NCBI RefSeq assembly: GCF_014349155.1
Contig: NZ_JACSIT010000153.1
Location: forward strand, 1 to 64,000
From: Neolewinella lacunae
Lineage (GTDB): Bacteria; Bacteroidota; Bacteroidia; Chitinophagales; Saprospiraceae
Direction: 5' to 3'
Length of the DNA stretch: 64,000 nt
Made by a program: the position numbers and the translations under genes. Positions 825 to 13,227 of this stretch are shown here, in pieces. Every line of letters starts with the position of its first letter. The first letter of the stretch is position 1. The notes under the pieces are model-generated. The model had not been told where the DNA came from, made no database searches, and saw nothing but the letters and a program-made list of their open reading frames with translations.

Positions 825-1550
825 CAAATTATTAAGTGTCCAGTCAGAAGGAAACGAATAATGCATTATTGATTCAGGATCATATCTGGAGAAGTTAGTC
901 TGATCTCGATCCAAAACATTGAATATATTTCTATCAACATCTTCTCTTGACCATCTCTGATTAATTGGTAGATTAGCAAAATAGGCGTATACCTTTTCTC
1001 TATCCCATTCAATACCATTTTCTGGATGTTGGTGTTCATGTTTAAAACCAATTGCATGACCAAACTCATGCAATATGACTTGTTCTATCCTAAGTGAACT
1101 ACTAAATTGATTGAAGCTTAAATTCATTGTAGCTTCATCATTAGGAATCCCTAATGCATCTTTACCCACATAGGAATTATTTATATTTGAAGTATTAAAA
1201 TCTATACGAATATCACTTTCACCTTCTTGACTAAACGTGAAGCTAATATTTGCGTATTCAGACCACATAGGTGCTATAGATCTAACTTGATCACGTTGAA
1301 AGCTAGACCCAGATAAAAACTTAACTACAAGGTTTGCTCCATTTGGCCACTTCTATCCTCTTTGAACAACTAAGCTTATAGTAGGGGATACTTCCGCATC
1401 TGGATTAGGGTCAGTTACAGTCGTACAAATTGCAAAGGTGCCTTCAGCTATCGGCTCAACGGATTCATTCGGTTGAATATTTTCTTCTTTATTACATGAG
1501 ATTATCAGCAAAAATATCGCTGAGAAGAAAATTATTACTGCATGTTTCAT
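810..1550 (-). pseudogene. Broken astacin-like zinc metalloprotease lipoprotein (third integron-like cassette)
   Basis: Remnant of a secreted metallopeptidase. The first part (1550-1353) encodes a lipoprotein signal peptide with lipobox LIISC and then stops at an in-frame TAG (1353-1355). The reading frame continues through 28 codons (KWPNGANLVVKF...) into the catalytic part, which carries the zinc motif HEFGHAIGFKHEH and the Met-turn SIMHY. The two pieces are in the same frame, so a single point mutation could explain the stop. The 3' end is cut by the IS1-family element, which supplies the last codons (AVYH) and a new stop. Either lesion alone should abolish normal product. A truncated catalytic fragment starting at an internal ATG (1268) is possible but would lack an export signal. 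Confidence 0.8.
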
Positions 1551-1574
1551 ATTGATTTTTTTTTAATTTCACAC

Positions 1575-1632
1575 AACGGATGCGCACACGCAGCCGGCCT
1601 AAGCCGGTTGACGTGTGCGCAATGTTCCATGC
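1575..1632 (-). other. attC-like recombination site 2 (58 bp)
   Basis: On the minus strand the site opens with GCATGGAACATTGCGC and closes with CATCCGTTGTG. It folds into a hairpin: TGCGCACACG (1581-1590) pairs perfectly with CGTGTGCGCA (1612-1621), with a further GCCGGC/GCCGG pairing inside. The opening GCATGGAAC is the exact complement of GTTCCATGC that starts the cassette at 3127, as required if this site and that cassette start were once joined in a circle. It lies directly after the protease stop codon. AAC and GTT occupy the expected outer positions, although the full RYYYAAC/GTTRRRY consensus is not met. Confidence 0.7.
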
Positions 1633-1635
1633 ATG

Positions 1636-3045
1636 CTAATTATTAGGAAGATACAAGCTGCTTACTCCTATATTTAAAAGTCCCCAATTTTGATTTGTTG
1701 TGCCTTTTTTAAGCATAGCATTACTATTATCCAATACCACTGCCAAAATATCACCACTAGCATTTATATCAATTACGCCGTCTGCTATTTTGGTCCAATT
1801 ACTGTTTAGGCTACCTTCTTTCACCCATGCTGTGCGATCATTAATCATTGCGATAATCCTATTATTACTTAATTGTGATTCACTTACATTATCAGCAACA
1901 TGAACATATGTAGAGTTAATTGAACCTTCTTTTATCATCAATCGATTATCATTTAATAAAACTGCAATCCTATTTGATGTTAACTCTATCGATCTACAAT
2001 TATCAGCAACATGCACCCAATTAGAATTCAAAGCTCCTTCTTTTACTAAAGCTTTTCCATCTGATGATATGACTCCAACTCTATTAGCACTTAAGGAAAA
2101 ATTCACAGCGCCATCAAGTAATTTATCATAATTTGAATTTATACTTCCTTCTTTTACGTGCAAATTACCACTGATAATTACTCCGATTCTATTACCTGAT
2201 AATTGAATTTTGCTCGCATCATCAGCAACTTTAACCCAATCCGAATCAAGACCTCCTTCTTTTACCCAAGCTGTTTTATCTCTCTTTATAACTCCAATAC
2301 GATTATCGGATATAGAAGCTTGGGTTACACCATTCATCAATCTAGTCCATGAGTATGTATTCCCTTCAATTCCAAATAGGTTACCACCAATGATTGCTAC
2401 AACTCGATCTCCTTGCGGATTAAAAGGTCCATATACCTTTCGCAAACCTATCTTATCCCATTCGCTTAATTCCCCACCATTATTATAATTGGGATTACAA
2501 TAGTTCATAACAGATTCAATATCGCAAGGTGTAGCATACCAGTCGCCATCTGTTCCCTGTGGCTGTTCATGACATCCACAGTCAGATCTATTATGTTCAT
2601 GAGAAAAACCCAGTGCGTGGCCAAATTCATGAACAGCAATTATTTTTATACAATAATCATTGGAAAATGAACATCCATCCCAGTCGAAATTAAGAACCAT
2701 ACCTGCCTCCACGTGGTTTAGTTCTTTGCCTAAACCTTTAGTATGAGGATGTTCATTTGCAATTTTTATCCGTAACTCCGAACTTAAAATTCTTAAAGTG
2801 CCACACTTTTGCCACCCAGTAAATTGAATACTACTATATTTTTCCCAAGTATTTTTGACTGCATTTTCTACTAGTTTTCTTTCTCTGGTATTGGAGGGGT
2901 CTGGGTTCTCCCAACAAACTGTAATTTCAGCATCATCCCAAACAGCAGCCCGCAAAACATTGACATATTGTATGTCTTGAGCACAAATTGATTGGACAAA
3001 TACGGACAAAAAAAGTATGCCCAAAATTCTTCTTCGGAAAATCAT
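1636..3045 (-). CDS. Secreted zinc metalloprotease with seven short C-terminal repeats (cassette 2)
   Basis: Predicted extracellular zinc peptidase of about 469 residues. The chosen ATG at 3045 starts directly before a signal peptide (basic start, hydrophobic core, cleavage after SICAQ); an earlier ATG at 3096 would add 17 residues and spoil it. The catalytic domain has HEFGHALGFSHEHNRSD (three zinc His, catalytic Glu) and a Met-turn ESVMNY. The last ~250 residues are about seven repeats of 36-37 residues built on NRIGVI...VKEGSLNSNWVKVADN, which suggests a small-bladed propeller or lectin-like module. It fills the second integron-like cassette, its stop lying four bases from the attC-like site. 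The DNA is far more AT-rich than the chromosome, pointing to transfer. The substrate is unknown. Confidence 0.75.
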   Translation of the reverse strand: MIFRRRILGILFLSVFVQSICAQDIQYVNVLRAAVWDDAEITVCWENPDPSNTRERKLVENAVKNTWEKYSSIQFTGWQKCGTLRILSSELRIKIANEHPHTKGLGKELNHVEAGMVLNFDWDGCSFSNDYCIKIIAVHEFGHALGFSHEHNRSDCGCHEQPQGTDGDWYATPCDIESVMNYCNPNYNNGGELSEWDKIGLRKVYGPFNPQGDRVVAIIGGNLFGIEGNTYSWTRLMNGVTQASISDNRIGVIKRDKTAWVKEGGLDSDWVKVADDASKIQLSGNRIGVIISGNLHVKEGSINSNYDKLLDGAVNFSLSANRVGVISSDGKALVKEGALNSNWVHVADNCRSIELTSNRIAVLLNDNRLMIKEGSINSTYVHVADNVSESQLSNNRIIAMINDRTAWVKEGSLNSNWTKIADGVIDINASGDILAVVLDNSNAMLKKGTTNQNWGLLNIGVSSLYLPNN

Positions 3046-3124
3046 ATTTATAGTTTTATATATGGAAAATAATTTTATAAGATTTTCTAGCACCAAATAT
3101 ATCCTAATTTCATCACTTGCATGG

Positions 3125-3254
3125 AACGGTCTCGGCTATGAGCAGTTGGGGATTTTAAGCCCAAACTTTTCGGTTTAGCACCGAACCTTTAATTTATATT
3201 TGTAAGTTGCGTTAAACACTTACTCCCCAATTGCTTATAGCCAATGTTAGCTGC
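3125..3254 (-). other. attC-like recombination site 1 (~130 bp)
   Basis: On the minus strand the site runs from GCAGCTAACATTGG to GAGACCGTTCC. Its arms pair over 19 positions with two mismatches (3134-3152 against 3224-3242), and the loop contains smaller inverted repeats (for example TTCGGT/ACCGAA). The opening GCAGCTAAC is the exact complement of the cassette start GTTAGCTGC at 4544-4536. It shares with site 2 the outer pattern AACATTG ... CCGTT. Length and large structured loop are like long attC sites of chromosomal integrons. Confidence 0.72.
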
Positions 3255-3280
3255 TGGCATTTCTGGTTTGATTCAAAATG

Positions 3281-4489
3281 TTATTCCCTCATCCACATTG
3301 GTGGCCAGTCATATTCTTCCGAAACTGCTCTTACTATTTCGTGAATTAATGGAAATGCGTTGTCTGAATTTGTCATAATTACAACTCCTCGACCATTATT
3401 CGCAAAAGATACAGCGTAGCACTTAAAACCTGCATTTCCTCCAGTATGTCTGAATCGAAATGCATTACCTTCGCCATCAATTCCGATTCCAGTTGCACCA
3501 GCGTTTGGAACTCTTGTCATCATTTTTTTTGCTGATGATTGCTTTAAAATTGAGTTCTCCTCGCCTCTGTAAGACTTTCCTAATGCAATCATAAATTTGG
3601 CTAAATCGGTTGGATTAGACCAAAGTCCAGCAGCAGCCTTTTCTGGATATATGTGGTAACCACCTCTAATTTCATTTCCGCTCTCATCATAACCCATTGA
3701 AATATTATTTTCTATTTTTTCTGGAATTGGATAAGCAAATGTACTGTTCGTCATTCCTGCAGGATTCAACACCAGACTATCCATTAAATTCGGGAATTCT
3801 TGACCACTAACATCTTCCATTAGCATTTGAAGAACAGTCATACCTCCGCCAGAATACCTTTCGGATTCGCCAGGTATTTGAACTACACGAACTGGTTCTG
3901 AATTTGTTATGCTACTGCCTTCCAAAATCTGTTTTAATGTTGGAATTGAGTCCGTTATCTCATAGCCTTGGAATCCTGATGTACTTAATCCAGAAGTATG
4001 GCTCATAATTCTACTTGCGGTAACCTTTTCGTTAGTGGTGAATTCGTTTTCAGGAACTTGCCAACGTTTTAGTTTTAAATTTACATTTTCGTCAAGGTCA
4101 AATCTATTTTGTTCGATTAATTTAAAAGCACCCACGCTTGCAACTGGTTTGGATATTGATGCGGCTTGAAAAAGGGTGTTTTCAGTTACTTTTTCGCCAT
4201 TTTTTTTGTTGCTATATCCGTATCCCTTTGACCAGAGTATTTCATTGTTGTCAAAAACCGTAATACTAACTCCGATTACGTTCAATTCTTTCATACGCAA
4301 TTCCAGCGTAGTAGTAATGGAATCACTTTTGCCAGTATCGTCTATTCTTCTTATTCCATTTTCTACTAATTCTTGAGTTGATATTTTTTTGTCAGAACTC
4401 TGATTGTCTTCACTATTCTTTTTCGATTGACAAGCCAAGGTTGTCATCAAGAGAAGTCCGATTCCGATTCCTAGTTTGATTTTATTCAT
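3281..4489 (-). CDS. Serine beta-lactamase-like lipoprotein (cassette 1)
   Basis: 402-residue exported serine hydrolase of the class C beta-lactamase / D-alanyl-D-alanine carboxypeptidase / esterase superfamily (Pfam Beta-lactamase). The N-terminus is a lipoprotein signal peptide with lipobox LACQ (Cys near residue 20). The catalytic S-x-x-K is present as SISK near residue 115, a YSGGG motif takes the place of YxN, and HTGGN near residue 353 takes the place of the KTG box. Members range from esterases to peptidases, so beta-lactam resistance cannot be claimed. It is the only gene in the first integron-like cassette, directly downstream of the attI-like junction, and is AT-rich. No promoter of its own was identified, so read-through from the integrase gene is possible. 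Confidence 0.82.
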   Translation of the reverse strand: MNKIKLGIGIGLLLMTTLACQSKKNSEDNQSSDKKISTQELVENGIRRIDDTGKSDSITTTLELRMKELNVIGVSITVFDNNEILWSKGYGYSNKKNGEKVTENTLFQAASISKPVASVGAFKLIEQNRFDLDENVNLKLKRWQVPENEFTTNEKVTASRIMSHTSGLSTSGFQGYEITDSIPTLKQILEGSSITNSEPVRVVQIPGESERYSGGGMTVLQMLMEDVSGQEFPNLMDSLVLNPAGMTNSTFAYPIPEKIENNISMGYDESGNEIRGGYHIYPEKAAAGLWSNPTDLAKFMIALGKSYRGEENSILKQSSAKKMMTRVPNAGATGIGIDGEGNAFRFRHTGGNAGFKCYAVSFANNGRGVVIMTNSDNAFPLIHEIVRAVSEEYDWPPMWMRE

Positions 4490-4530
4490 AATTTCTATTG
4501 TTGGTTAATTCTGTTGGAATGTTTTGTTTA

Positions 4531-4560
4531 TGCTTGCAGCTAACTACCTTATACCCGCAA
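4531..4560 (-). other. attI-like junction between integrase and first cassette
   Basis: Twenty-eight bases after the integrase stop codon the minus strand reads GGTAGTTAGCTGCAAGC. GTTAGCTGC (4544-4536) is the exact complement of the GCAGCTAAC that begins attC-like site 1 more than 1.2 kb away, so crossover would fall after the G at 4544. The sequence to the integrase side is not complementary to any attC and has no large hairpin, as expected for attI rather than attC. The crossover point is inferred from this comparison. Confidence 0.6.
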
Positions 4561-4572
4561 CAATCCTGTATC

Positions 4573-6348
4573 TCACTTGCGCTTTTCGCCACCCAGGAGG
4601 TCATCCAGAGGGCTGACGATGCTGCGCAGGTGCTGATCGGATACGTGGGTGTAGAGCAGGGTGGTCTTGATGTCTTTGTGGCCGAGCAGCTCCTGGATGT
4701 AGCGCACGTCGGTACCGCGTTCAAGTAAGTGGGTGGCAAAGCAGTGGCATAAGGTGTGTGGCGTCACCTTGCGGTGGATGCCCGCACGCCGGGCGCAGGC
4801 ACGCACCACCGCCTGCACGCTGCGGGGAGAATAAGGGCTTTCCCCGTCCTGACCGTTGAACAACCATCCTTTGGGTTGGTAAGCCTCAAAATACTGTTGC
4901 AGCATGGCTTTGAGCTGTTGGCTCAACATCACTACCCGGTCTTTGCGGCCTTTGCCTTCCCGAACCAGCAGTTGGTTGCGCTCCCAATGCACGTCCGTCA
5001 GCCGTAGGGCCAGTAGCTCGGCCAGACGCAATCCAGAACTGTAAAGGGTGTAGAGGATGGTCAAATGCTTAAGGTTTTCGCTGGCGCGTAGGAGCCGGTC
5101 TATTTCTTGAATCGATAAAACCGACGGCAAAGTAAGGCTTTTTCTCGGACGCTGCACCCGCTCTAAAGAAAAATCTGGCCGGAAAATTACTTTATCGTAG
5201 TAAAATTTGCTGGCATTGGCGGCCTGGTGCAGTTGGCTATCCGAGGCTCCAGCCCCGGCAAGGCTGGACAGGTAAGCGTTGACGTGCTTTTCCGTGGCTT
5301 TCTCGGATGCTACCTTCCCCCCCAACCATTCCAGGTAGCGGGCGTACCAAGTTGTGTACTGCTTTATGGTACTCCTGCTGTAGTGCATCCGCAACAAGGC
5401 ATCCGTAAATGCCTTGAGTTGTGGGCGTAGCTGAAGGGAGAACTTACTCAGCAGATGGTCTTGCTCCCCTGGCTCAGCAGCCTTGCGGCGTTTGGTGGAA
5501 TGAGCGTTCTCAACACTGATCCGGTCAATGACCTGGTCTCCTCGCCTCTCGTAATACGTCTTGATCCGTTCCGCCAAACCAGGGCGCTTCGGTACCTGCC
5601 ACCGCTGGGCAGCTCGGTCGTACTGCCGGTCGGGCAAACTTTTCAGCCACGCCTGGTCTGCACCGTAGCCTTTGACCTTGATGAGTAAGTCGCCGGGAAA
5701 TTCAGGGCTCTCGTAAAGTGTAATGACGACGGGGTCTTCGCACTGCCGCAACAGCTCCAGCCAGGTCTGGTAGGTTTCGGCGGCGGGAACACCGTAACGT
5801 TCACGCAAGCAGGTAAGGATTGCCGGGCGAGCGGGAAGTACCCAAACTTTGTCCCCTTTATGCCACCAACTCTGTGGCAGAGAACGTAAAAAGGCAGCCT
5901 CCGTAGCGGAATAGGCCATGCGTACGCAGAGCCATTTTCCTTTACGCTCAATGTCAACTTCCGCTATTGGACGGTGCAAAGCACCTATGTCGCCTGACAT
6001 CGAAACCCCGGGGATGTCGGAGGGGGCGAATGCGACAGCCGCAGGGCTGCCTACGTCGGAGCTATCACCTTCTGGGCGGGGTTGCCCGGTGGTGCCGATT
6101 GGGAAGTTATCTATTTCAGGTAGCTCAGGAACTGGCCTTGCTGCAATCTGACCCGTCGTCAAATAGTTAATTAGCTGCAATTCGTGGAGCAGTGTGGAAT
6201 TCGATTCGGTCGCCGATACGCTCCAGCACCGCTCTTGGGCCTGCCACTTGGCTCCCGCCAGGCGCTTTACCCGAGCAATCAGGGACAGGTCGTAAGGGAT
6301 CGATAATTTCCAGTAAAGTGTTTCTTCATTTTGCGGCAGCTTTTGCAT
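4573..6348 (-). CDS. Tyrosine recombinase, integron-integrase-like, with three-module N-terminal extension; catalytic Arg II replaced
   Basis: 591-residue tyrosine recombinase related to XerD/IntI. The core-binding domain spans about 305-390 and the catalytic domain about 405-585. Catalytic residues seen are Arg441 (SSGLRLAE), Lys466, His531, His557 (LLGHKD) and Tyr566 (LLYTHVS); the end SPLDDLL resembles IntI. At position 534, where HxxR demands Arg, the codon is TGC (Cys), so strand cleavage is probably lost or strongly weakened. About 53 residues separate the Lys strand from HxxR, too few for the extra IntI domain. Residues 1-290 carry three copies of a module of the type FLRSLPQSWWHKGDKVWVLP (about 10-57, 131-187, 205-273). 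It lies directly upstream of, and co-oriented with, the cassettes, the reverse of class 1 integrons. Confidence 0.85.
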   Translation of the reverse strand: MQKLPQNEETLYWKLSIPYDLSLIARVKRLAGAKWQAQERCWSVSATESNSTLLHELQLINYLTTGQIAARPVPELPEIDNFPIGTTGQPRPEGDSSDVGSPAAVAFAPSDIPGVSMSGDIGALHRPIAEVDIERKGKWLCVRMAYSATEAAFLRSLPQSWWHKGDKVWVLPARPAILTCLRERYGVPAAETYQTWLELLRQCEDPVVITLYESPEFPGDLLIKVKGYGADQAWLKSLPDRQYDRAAQRWQVPKRPGLAERIKTYYERRGDQVIDRISVENAHSTKRRKAAEPGEQDHLLSKFSLQLRPQLKAFTDALLRMHYSRSTIKQYTTWYARYLEWLGGKVASEKATEKHVNAYLSSLAGAGASDSQLHQAANASKFYYDKVIFRPDFSLERVQRPRKSLTLPSVLSIQEIDRLLRASENLKHLTILYTLYSSGLRLAELLALRLTDVHWERNQLLVREGKGRKDRVVMLSQQLKAMLQQYFEAYQPKGWLFNGQDGESPYSPRSVQAVVRACARRAGIHRKVTPHTLCHCFATHLLERGTDVRYIQELLGHKDIKTTLLYTHVSDQHLRSIVSPLDDLLGGEKRK

Positions 6349-6906
6349 CCTTAACTATGGTTGTGGACCACAAAACTGCAGTGTCAACCAATAGATAGTT
6401 GCTATTTAAACGTTTACTTACGATTATACACAACTAAAGACGGCTGCGGCGCTGATATCCCTCCCCCCCAACACGGCTTCGCCGTCCATGCGTCGAAGCG
6501 GGTTTCGGGCAGGTGGTGCGGTGCGATAGGAAATAGGCGAAGGGTTTCACCGGGTGGAAGGTAGGGCGGTGGGGGGGATTTTGCAAGGGTGTAGTTCATA
6601 GTTCAGTAGTTCATAGTTCATAGTTCATAGTTCAGTAGTTCAGTAGTTCAGTAGTTCATAGAAGGCTGGGACCTTACCTGAGCAGAACTCCAAGCAACTC
6701 CATGCCAAACTCCATGCGACTTCATGGGCCAATAAGGACCTCTGGTCTGGTGGTCGGGCTGAAGCCGCGACAATACCTTGAGCGGAACTCCAAGCAACTC
6801 CATGCTGAACTCCATGCAACTCCATGGGCTAAACAGGGCCTTAAGTCTTGGTAGTCGGGCGGAAGCCGCGACGGTACTTGGGGGCTTCCCCTGCTCCTTG
6901 TCCATT
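6349..6906. repeat. Integrase upstream region with TAGTTCA and ACTCCATGCA repeats
   Basis: No gene is supported here. Bases 6593-6662 are a run of TAGTTCATAGTTCAG-type heptamers and octamers. Bases 6687-6728 and 6788-6832 each carry several ACTCCATGCA-type units followed by CATGGGC, and the two stretches resemble each other at about 100 bp spacing, including the later GGTCGGGCTGAAGCCGCGAC / AGTCGGGCGGAAGCCGCGAC. The same units recur at 9.06, 13.3 and 13.6-13.95 kb. Confidence 0.6.
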
Positions 6907-11073: not shown

Positions 11074-13227
11074 ATGTTCCGTAAAGCACTCCTCCTTCTC
11101 CTCCCCTTTCTACTCCCCCTTTTCGTCACAGCCGGTGGCGGCATGTGGCTCCCCCTGCTCCTGGAAAACCTCAACGAGGCGGAGATGAAGGAGATGGGGA
11201 TGAAAATCTCGGCCAAAGACATCTACGACATCAACAACGGCAGCCTCAAGGATGCCATCGTCCACTTCGGCGGCTTCTGTACCGGCGAGGTGATCAGCAG
11301 TAAAGGCCTCGTCTTAACCAACCACCACTGTGGCTTCACGGCCATCCAGTCGCACTCCACGCTCGAAAACAATTACCTCGAAGACGGCTTCTGGGCCGCC
11401 AACCACGCCCAGGAAATCCCCAACCCCGGGCTCTTCGTTACCTTCATCGACCGCATCGAAGACGTCACCCCCCGGGTCCTCGACGGCGTGTATGCGGATA
11501 CACCCGAAGCCGAACGCGCGCGCCTGGTTGCCGAAAACCTCCGCCAGCTCCGCGAAAAATACCCCCTCAAAGAACACGAGGAACTGCTCGTCAAACCCTT
11601 CTACGACGGCAATCAGTACTTCGCCTTCGTGACCAAAAAGTACACCGACATCCGCCTGGTCGGTGCCCCACCCTCCTCCATCGGCAAGTTCGGTGCCGAC
11701 ACCGACAACTGGGAATGGCCCCGGCACACGGGAGACTTCAGCCTCTTCCGCATCTACGCCGCCCCCGACGGTAGCCCCGCCGCCTACAGCTCCGACAATG
11801 TCCCCTACACCCCCAAAAAACACCTCGAGATCAGCCTCCAGGGCCTCCAGCCCGGCGACTTCTCCATGGTCTTCGGCTTCCCCGGCACGACCGATCAGTA
11901 CCTGCCCGCTTCGGCCATGCAGCAGCGTACAGAAGTCCTCAACCCCATCCGCATCGGCATGCGCGACCTGAGCCTGGCCGTCATCGACAGCGCCATGCGC
12001 GCCAGTGCTCAGGTAAAAATCGACTACGCCAGCAAGCAGGCCCGCATTGCCAACGCCTGGAAAAAGTGGCGCGGCGAAAGTGAGGGCGTCGCTGCCGTCA
12101 ACGCCATCGCTCAACGCCAGGACCTCGAAAAAGAATTTCTCCGCCGCCTCCAGGCTAAACCCGCCGAAGCCGAAATCTACGCCCCCCTCCTGCCCGAACT
12201 CAATGCCCTGGTTGTCCGCCAGGAAGCCGTCGCCAAAACCCGCGCCTACGTCGGCGAAATGAATTACAATATCGACCTCTTCCGCGTAGCCAGTTTCCTC
12301 AGCGGGCAGCTGAAAATCGCTCAGAGCAATGGCCTGGCGGCTTTCCGCGAAAGGGTCCCCGGCATCGTGGCTTTTCTCGAAGAGTTTTACACCGGTTACC
12401 ACCCCGGGATCGACCAGCGCGTTGCCCAGGCCCTCATTCCCGTGTACCTCGATGAGGTGCCCGAAAACCACCAGAGCTTTTACGTGCGCGACCAGGTCGA
12501 ATTCGCCGGCTCCCGCCAAAAATTGATCAACGACCTCTTCGAACGCAGTTACCTCACCCGCGGCGCGCGCCTGATCAAGCTCCTGCAGGACAACCCCGAT
12601 GTCGCCGTAGACGTAATCAACGGAGACCCCGCTTACCAGTTCGTCCTCCAGCTCAACCGCTTCAACGAAAAGGAAGTCGGCGAGCCCTACAACGAAATCG
12701 CCCAGCGCATGGCCCCCCTCCAGCGCAAGTACCTGGCCGGATTGATGACCTTTTTCCCTGAGCGCCGCTTCTACCCCGACGCCAACAGCACCCTGCGCGT
12801 CAGCTACGGCAAGTTCGAAGGCTTCACGGGCCTGGACGGCAAAACCTTCGACTTCATGACCGACCTCGACGGAGTGATCGCCAAATACATCCCCGGCAAT
12901 TACGAATTCGACGTACCCGCCCGCCTGCGGGAGCTACACGCCGCCAAAGATTACGGCCGCTACGCCACCGCCGATGGCAAACTGCCCGTCTGCATCCTGG
13001 GTTCCAACCACACCACGGGCGGCAACAGCGGCAGCCCCGCCCTCGACGCCAACGGACGCCTGGTGGGCCTCAACTTCGACCGCACCTGGCAAAGCACCAT
13101 GAGCGACGTGCACTACGACCCCAGCATCTGCCGCAACATCATGGTGGACATCCGCTACGTCCTTTTCCTCATCGATAAATTCGGCGGCGCCCCCCACCTC
13201 GTCGAAGAAATGACTTTGGTGAATTAG
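11074..13227 (+). CDS. S46 family dipeptidyl peptidase (DPP11-like)
   Basis: 717-residue periplasmic serine exopeptidase that removes dipeptides from oligopeptide N-termini, supporting amino-acid nutrition. A signal peptide precedes TAGGG. The trypsin-like triad is visible: His85 in TNHHCGF, Asp222 in HTGDFSLFR, Ser652 in GGNSGSP. Arg670 in FDRTW lies 18 residues after the Ser; the same spacing in Porphyromonas DPP11 (Ser655, Arg673) places an Arg in the S1 pocket that selects Asp or Glu at P1, whereas DPP7 has Gly there. I therefore infer acidic specificity. Full family length. Its neighbour in the divergent direction is an S41 protease; repeats follow the stop codon immediately. Confidence 0.94.
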   Translation: MFRKALLLLLPFLLPLFVTAGGGMWLPLLLENLNEAEMKEMGMKISAKDIYDINNGSLKDAIVHFGGFCTGEVISSKGLVLTNHHCGFTAIQSHSTLENNYLEDGFWAANHAQEIPNPGLFVTFIDRIEDVTPRVLDGVYADTPEAERARLVAENLRQLREKYPLKEHEELLVKPFYDGNQYFAFVTKKYTDIRLVGAPPSSIGKFGADTDNWEWPRHTGDFSLFRIYAAPDGSPAAYSSDNVPYTPKKHLEISLQGLQPGDFSMVFGFPGTTDQYLPASAMQQRTEVLNPIRIGMRDLSLAVIDSAMRASAQVKIDYASKQARIANAWKKWRGESEGVAAVNAIAQRQDLEKEFLRRLQAKPAEAEIYAPLLPELNALVVRQEAVAKTRAYVGEMNYNIDLFRVASFLSGQLKIAQSNGLAAFRERVPGIVAFLEEFYTGYHPGIDQRVAQALIPVYLDEVPENHQSFYVRDQVEFAGSRQKLINDLFERSYLTRGARLIKLLQDNPDVAVDVINGDPAYQFVLQLNRFNEKEVGEPYNEIAQRMAPLQRKYLAGLMTFFPERRFYPDANSTLRVSYGKFEGFTGLDGKTFDFMTDLDGVIAKYIPGNYEFDVPARLRELHAAKDYGRYATADGKLPVCILGSNHTTGGNSGSPALDANGRLVGLNFDRTWQSTMSDVHYDPSICRNIMVDIRYVLFLIDKFGGAPHLVEEMTLVN

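Follow-up and report, generated by a model that had tools for sequence, protein, structure and literature searches.

The integrases nearest to the one described here are the canonical integron integrases (IntI; profile TIGR02249, structure 2a3v), tyrosine recombinases that carry an additional I2 patch. A 2008 survey and an archaeal study both pick IntI by this additional domain (PMC2426708, PMC9668308), and the accessible text of Smyshlyaev et al. 2021, who have an integron-like subgroup, calls the insertion essential for integron function and links no array to members without it (PMC8138268). IntI is reported to be generally reverse-oriented in typical Spirochaetota, the setting of the Treponema integrons (PMC9668308). 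Bacteroidota are listed as an integron-bearing phylum in reviews (PMC8618304, PMC9668308), and the IntegronFinder 2.0 paper names a single complete integron in Bacteroidetes proper, that of Salinibacter ruber (PMC9024848). How the handling of single-stranded attC arose has been approached by directed evolution of IntI1, with "the lack of intermediates" noted (PMC7790495). A more distant point of comparison is MrpR, which combines a recombinase fold with missing catalytic residues, as does the integrase below, but is a prophage repressor with several such residues replaced and, in the accessible part of its description, no cassette array (PMC10516654).

The window, by which we mean the whole 64,000-nucleotide stretch of Neolewinella lacunae DNA analysed here (contig NZ_JACSIT010000153.1), carries an integrase gene followed by a cassette array (Table 1). 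A sequence-only reading had reported a TGC codon, and thus Cys, at the Arg II place of this integrase, and the assembly bears this out: the plus strand reads GCA at 4747-4749, so that the coding strand of the minus-strand ORF at 4573-6348 has TGC, and residue 534 is Cys within TPHTLCHCFATHLLERG. R441, K466, H531, H557, and Y566 are present, as that reading also stated, which leaves five of the six catalytic residues of the R-K-H-R-H/W-Y set intact. The catalytic domain scores 125.2 bits against PF00589, above the curated cut-off of 27.1. The Arg II lesion is real at the level of the assembly; taken alone, R534C is an ordinary kind of event, and its interest sits in the branch to which the protein belongs. 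Upstream of the gene lie short tandem repeats of the TAGTTCA type (6592-6658).

Table 1. Features of the integrase gene and of the array that it heads (window positions)
Feature	Positions	Strand	Basis or remark
IS1-family insertion sequence with terminal inverted repeats; contig end	1..824	-	
Cassette 3 start, astacin-like ORF, interrupted by the insertion sequence	825..1576	-	
attC-like hairpin, cassette 2	1569..1632	-	
Cassette 2	1577..3126	-	ORF 1636-3096, astacin/matrixin-like metalloprotease
attC-like hairpin, cassette 1	3119..3254	-	
Cassette 1	3127..4543	-	ORF 3281-4489, beta-lactamase-family/serine hydrolase
attI-like site just beyond the integrase stop	4536..4572	-	Crossover G|TT between 4544 and 4543; R'/R'' 9/9
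Integrase gene	4573..6348	-	591 aa ORF, product P0001; no other copy found in the genome is full-length
Catalytic domain (aa 411-573), lacking the I2 patch of IntI	4630..5118	-	
TGC codon of Cys534, in the place of catalytic Arg II in the HxxR box	4747..4749	-	
Core-binding (SAM-like) domain, aa 311-388	5185..5418	-	PF13495
HARP-like module 3, aa 218-270	5539..5697	-	Secondary structure and sequence pattern only; missed by own profile
HARP-like module 2, aa 130-191	5776..5961	-	Own profile E 2.6e-4; model
HARP-like module 1, aa 8-58	6175..6327	-	Pfam HARP E 7.9e-4, under cut-off; own profile E 1.9e-10; beta-alpha-beta-beta-alpha in model

Integron cassettes are characterized by the pairing of their two ends across a G|TT crossover. 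In the window, the junction bases GTTAGCTGC beside the integrase gene have their counterpart in GCAGCTAAC, which stands at a hairpin foot 1.29 kb downstream; the ends of both cassettes match at 6/6 positions beyond AAC/GTT. When ten genomic 3' ends of the integrase and its remnants are aligned, the likeness continues about 30 bases past the stop to GTAGTT in seven (the motif is missing in C96, C49a, and C52b), and beyond this junction the sequences diverge save for a short A-rich start common to several. Among the seven genomic copies tested, the R'' match of the first cassette is found at 9/9 in C135, C72, C87, and C117 and at 8/9 in C49b, a count to be read with the one-mismatch decoys that C87 also has at 3.5 kb and C117 at 6.5 kb; there is none in the 3.9 and 1.0 kb of contig left in C101 and C123, respectively. 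In C72 the hairpin is followed by GCT and not by GTT. Judged by this sequence anatomy, the array is genuine, as the sequence-only reading had supposed. The product of cassette 1 is a putative beta-lactamase-family protein (PF00144), named by family only. Our attC scan, a home-made hairpin score and not IntegronFinder, gave two sites in the other 57 kb of the window, with scores of 28.0 and 24.5. Elsewhere in the genome, at locus L056 (G000:C96), different genes are separated by copies of an element of about 250 nt (e.g., 4720-4975 and 12319-12574), 4 to 7 in number by repeat families; the element starts like a cassette (GTTAGCCACC) and is perhaps an ORF-less spacer or promoter cassette.

What the sequence-only reading missed is that this enzyme is not a canonical IntI. 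The spacing from Lys466 to His531 is 65 residues; the corresponding Lys-HxxR spacing is 64-65 in all 29 relatives fetched from a search of 60 genomes and, in a collection of named genomes, 62-71 in 63 loci without the I2 patch (hereafter patch-less) versus 106-107 in 17 canonical IntI loci. TIGR02249 aligns with the window integrase below cut-off and in two blocks, 2-179 and 240-315, skipping about 180-239. None of the 60 genomes, the window's own included, yielded a match above this cut-off of 265 bits; as a positive control, six canonical IntI reached 423-483 bits, and the range for three patch-less relatives, including one partial protein, was 162-216. The best NCBIfam match of the window protein is NF040815 (recomb_XerA_Arch) at 218.2 bits, just under the equivalog cut-off of 220, which the relatives L088 (235.5) and L094 (227.3) pass; its label, "site-specific tyrosine recombinase/integron integrase", says nothing of an array or of HARP-like modules. 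In a FastTree tree of 70 proteins, all 17 canonical IntI group together (support 1.0), and their neighbour is a clade of 46 patch-less proteins (0.88). Support for the node that unites the two is 0.70, and a few patch-less proteins fall outside; the window protein groups with L164, L165, L166, and L021 (0.996).

Canonical IntI and the window integrase, members of neighbouring clades, have in common the tyrosine recombinase fold, a C-terminal SPLD motif, a cassette array, attI, attC-like hairpins, and the G|TT crossover. They differ in that the window integrase has no I2 patch, carries HARP-like modules, has its array on the 3' side of the gene, and has lost Arg II; the first three of these traits set it, as a protein and locus sequence, apart from canonical IntI. 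One fetched locus combines features of both: L150 (Treponema sp.), the single Treponema IntI among them, has a HARP-like module (aa 18-90) like the window integrase but retains the I2 patch, with a spacing of 106 and a TIGR02249 score of 422.7 bits.

In the N-terminal half of the protein, HARP-like modules precede the core-binding domain. Pfam HARP (PF07443) matches the window protein weakly, at 19.4 bits against a curated cut-off of 25. At E <= 0.1 it finds 16 of the 25 long forms, the strongest hit having an E of 7.6e-9; in a second set of proteins the yield is 5 of 28, with 5.7e-6 as the lowest E, and the window protein belongs to both sets. With a profile of our own, built from 19 N-terminal modules, two modules are recognized in the window protein and at least one in 40 of 55 family- or order-level loci, the other 15 giving none; among the 26 loci of a search of family genomes, 18 have three modules, seven have two, and one has one. 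An AlphaFold2 model of the window integrase (mean pLDDT 77, pTM 0.50) contains three beta-alpha-beta-beta-alpha units, at about residues 11-56, 139-185, and 220-268. A Foldseek search returned tyrosine recombinases, with no HARP among the best 50 of 181 matches. HARP domains fused to other SNF2 proteins confer annealing-helicase activity (PMC4035279), and the modules may here read the folded attC in place of I2. Among the patch-less loci of the named genomes, attC-like sites lie on the 3' side in 17 of 32 with a HARP-like module versus 2 of 31 without (p 7e-5), a link weakened by the relatedness of the loci, by contig ends, by the seeding of the profile with 19 loci of the same set, and by the fact that the loci without HARP are mostly of other lineages.

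Patch-less relatives have attC-like sites on the 3' side of the integrase gene. Around 43 family- or order-level loci, 39 attC-like sites were scored in 130.3 kb of 3' sequence versus one in 122.7 kb of 5' sequence; 17 of these loci have a 3'-side site, 22 of the 26 that have none offer at most 1.3 kb of 3' sequence, and L068, L071, L080, and L196 have none despite 4.8 to 8 kb. The 63 patch-less loci of named genomes gave 43 sites in 275.6 kb on the 3' side versus 16 in 372.9 kb on the 5' side, and the 17 canonical IntI show the opposite bias (9 in 103.9 kb versus 13 in 46.6 kb), as expected from the usual IntI orientation. The pairing of cassette ends was examined across 107 patch-less loci, the window included: on the 3' side, 25 of 76 adjacent pairs, in 14 loci, match at 6/6 positions, as compared with 3 of 124 within single sites and 0.14% of random pairs, and none of eight pairs on the 5' side does so. 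On the 5' side of canonical IntI, 8 of 13 pairs match at 6/6 and the other five at 5/6. The 51 patch-less pairs short of a full match reflect missed or false sites or a real absence of pairing. We also observed that in 23 of 55 loci (L021-L049, L164-L189) the contig continues for less than 400 bp beyond the integrase match on the 3' side, as against 1 of 55 on the 5' side; repeats or a variety of cassettes at attI would explain this.

The near-invariance of Arg II, which the sequence-only reading had stated, held in every examined relative that covers the position: Arg is present in 29 of 29 loci from the 60-genome search and in 80 of 80 from the named genomes (the best 80 of at least 588). 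A search of 298 family genomes added 26 loci; one of these, L186, stops before the HxxR box, and the other 25 all have Arg. Species may be shared among the three sets. Close relatives were found neither in viral contigs nor in a single-protein scan of genome contigs, a scan from which the window's own and very near genomes may have been absent, and the best 5000 plasmid records matched were all below 60% identity. Two side observations concern the same active site: Cys536, next but one to Cys534, is frequent in the long-form subfamily (HCFATH), and in the patch-less relative L046 Trp stands in place of Arg I, another possible natural loss. It is conceivable that the Cys534 enzyme is active, another group having replaced Arg II, much as Arg I occupies an alternative place in CTnDOT-type integrases (PMC8138268). 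We regard this as extremely improbable, however, as residues 404-591 contain no new Arg or other private change and the relatives examined have nothing but Arg II.

The remaining genome of N. lacunae (154 contigs, estimated 99.36% complete) offers a second line of comparison, for it contains further copies and remnants of the integrase, all 5'-truncated. Four copies can be aligned over residues 404-591, the window copy and three truncated paralogues, while residues 1-403 have no full-length paralogue with which to be compared. Over the aligned part, six base changes are private to the window copy. Five of them are silent, and since R534C is the only private replacement there, no compensating change accompanies it. 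Five of the six changes are C-to-T on the coding strand (4573-5139). The paralogues, up to 95% alike to the window copy, have lesions of their own: C72 is truncated and has H557Y, C101 has R534H, C87 has a frameshift with R441H and H531P, the latter beside an indel, and the short copy C117 has His534 and a stop. Each of the other genomic copies long enough to judge is thus truncated and lacks a catalytic residue, the other remnants being too short or decayed for judging. Several remnants consist of the last 40-60 integrase codons scattered in the genome (L054, L055, L056, L058, and L059, on C49, C96, C52, and C123), and two short ones (C49b and C123) end at the attI point, recalling the delta-attI sites described elsewhere (PMC12901181).

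These copies bear on whether the Cys codon is an error of sequencing or assembly, the true codon being Arg and the integrase functional. The assembly is a draft, a paralogue of up to 95% likeness might confuse it, and the predominance of C-to-T among the private changes could point the same way; however, the other four copies that include the codon all have C and none T at its first base, which rules out a chimera of these, and the recurrence of catalytic losses in other copies makes decay a theme of the family. We therefore consider such an error very unlikely. CpG decay as a general pattern proved weak, with each copy showing 0 to 4 CpG transitions in either direction and with a CpG observed/expected ratio of 0.98 in the window and 0.90 in the integrase gene.

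The same survey speaks to whether the array is still moved in trans, as the sequence-only reading had allowed in suggesting a dependence on another recombinase. That suggestion fared poorly: no intact integron-type integrase is among the matches in the assembly, the only two other full-length tyrosine recombinases among them (C16 and C33) are both Xer-like, and a TIGR02249 search of the genome gave nothing at or above cut-off. An intact integrase could lie in an assembly gap between the 154 contigs or on a mobile element, considering how often the contigs of relatives are cut near the integrase 3' end (the 23 of 55 loci above). Given the estimated completeness of the assembly, the defects in the copies found, and a window contig that runs unbroken through attI, we judge this distinctly unlikely.

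A further possibility is that the loss of catalysis was itself selected, an active integrase being costly or the protein now serving as a DNA-binding repressor of recombination or transcription like MrpR, which supplies the precedent (PMC10516654). The four long copies have 22 private replacements between them, five of which fall on the six catalytic positions (0.7 expected; p 5.5e-4), or 4 of 21 when H531P is left out (p 0.004), a clustering that hints at selection for inactivation but is a post hoc count in which CGN Arg codons are prone to transitions and H531P adjoins an indel. As truncated copies would also be unable to bind like the full protein, we view selected loss as unlikely.

We therefore return to lost catalysis and a frozen array, which the sequence-only reading had already put forward as one of two options and which we hold to be probable: a recent C-to-T change would have replaced Arg II by Cys in a patch-less, HARP-module integrase of the branch beside canonical IntI, abolishing cleavage in all likelihood and freezing the array. 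The intact relatives presumably recombine cassettes at G|TT between an attI site just past the 3' end of the integrase gene and folded attC hairpins, an anatomy of attI, attC, and cassettes that can be read directly from the DNA. In this strain, the loss of Arg II would stop this reaction. In Cre and Flp, mutants that lack Arg II, the residue in contact with the scissile phosphate, were rescued by charge-neutral substrates (PMC4499138); because of this contact, and since residues 404-591 hold no other private change, R534C most likely kills the window integrase. With a catalytic residue missing from every judgeable truncated copy as well, the genome's whole integrase family looks dead, from its sequences. 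Integrons are commonly frozen through loss of the integrase; pseudogenes made up nearly a third of the intI genes of one survey (PMC2426708), and active IntI1 is costly and lost through mutation (PMC3510236). On the other side, all 591 codons form an uninterrupted reading frame, and five silent changes to one replacement are as expected under selection until recently; moreover, Cys has a polar side chain, and His535 next to it could stand in to some degree.

Finally, it is worth considering what the branch may represent. We are evenly divided on the broader proposal that there is a widespread, mainly Bacteroidota integron branch without the I2 helix, in which the folded single-stranded attC is recognized instead by N-terminal HARP-like modules, kin to SMARCAL1's fork-annealing domain, the array grows from an attI where the integrase gene has its 3' end, and the window holds a naturally killed member. 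In the open-licence literature, searched by titles and the beginnings of abstracts, we found nothing on attC arrays headed by integrases without the patch; with preprints and the bulk of subscription papers lying outside that scope, this is no proof of novelty. The Cys534 copy would be a natural, catalytically damaged variant and, judging from its sequence, an example of how an array may be frozen through a single change. If patch-less HARP-type integrases do move cassettes, an integron reservoir would have been overlooked by design, and the question of how the handling of single-stranded attC originated would gain natural enzymes for testing.
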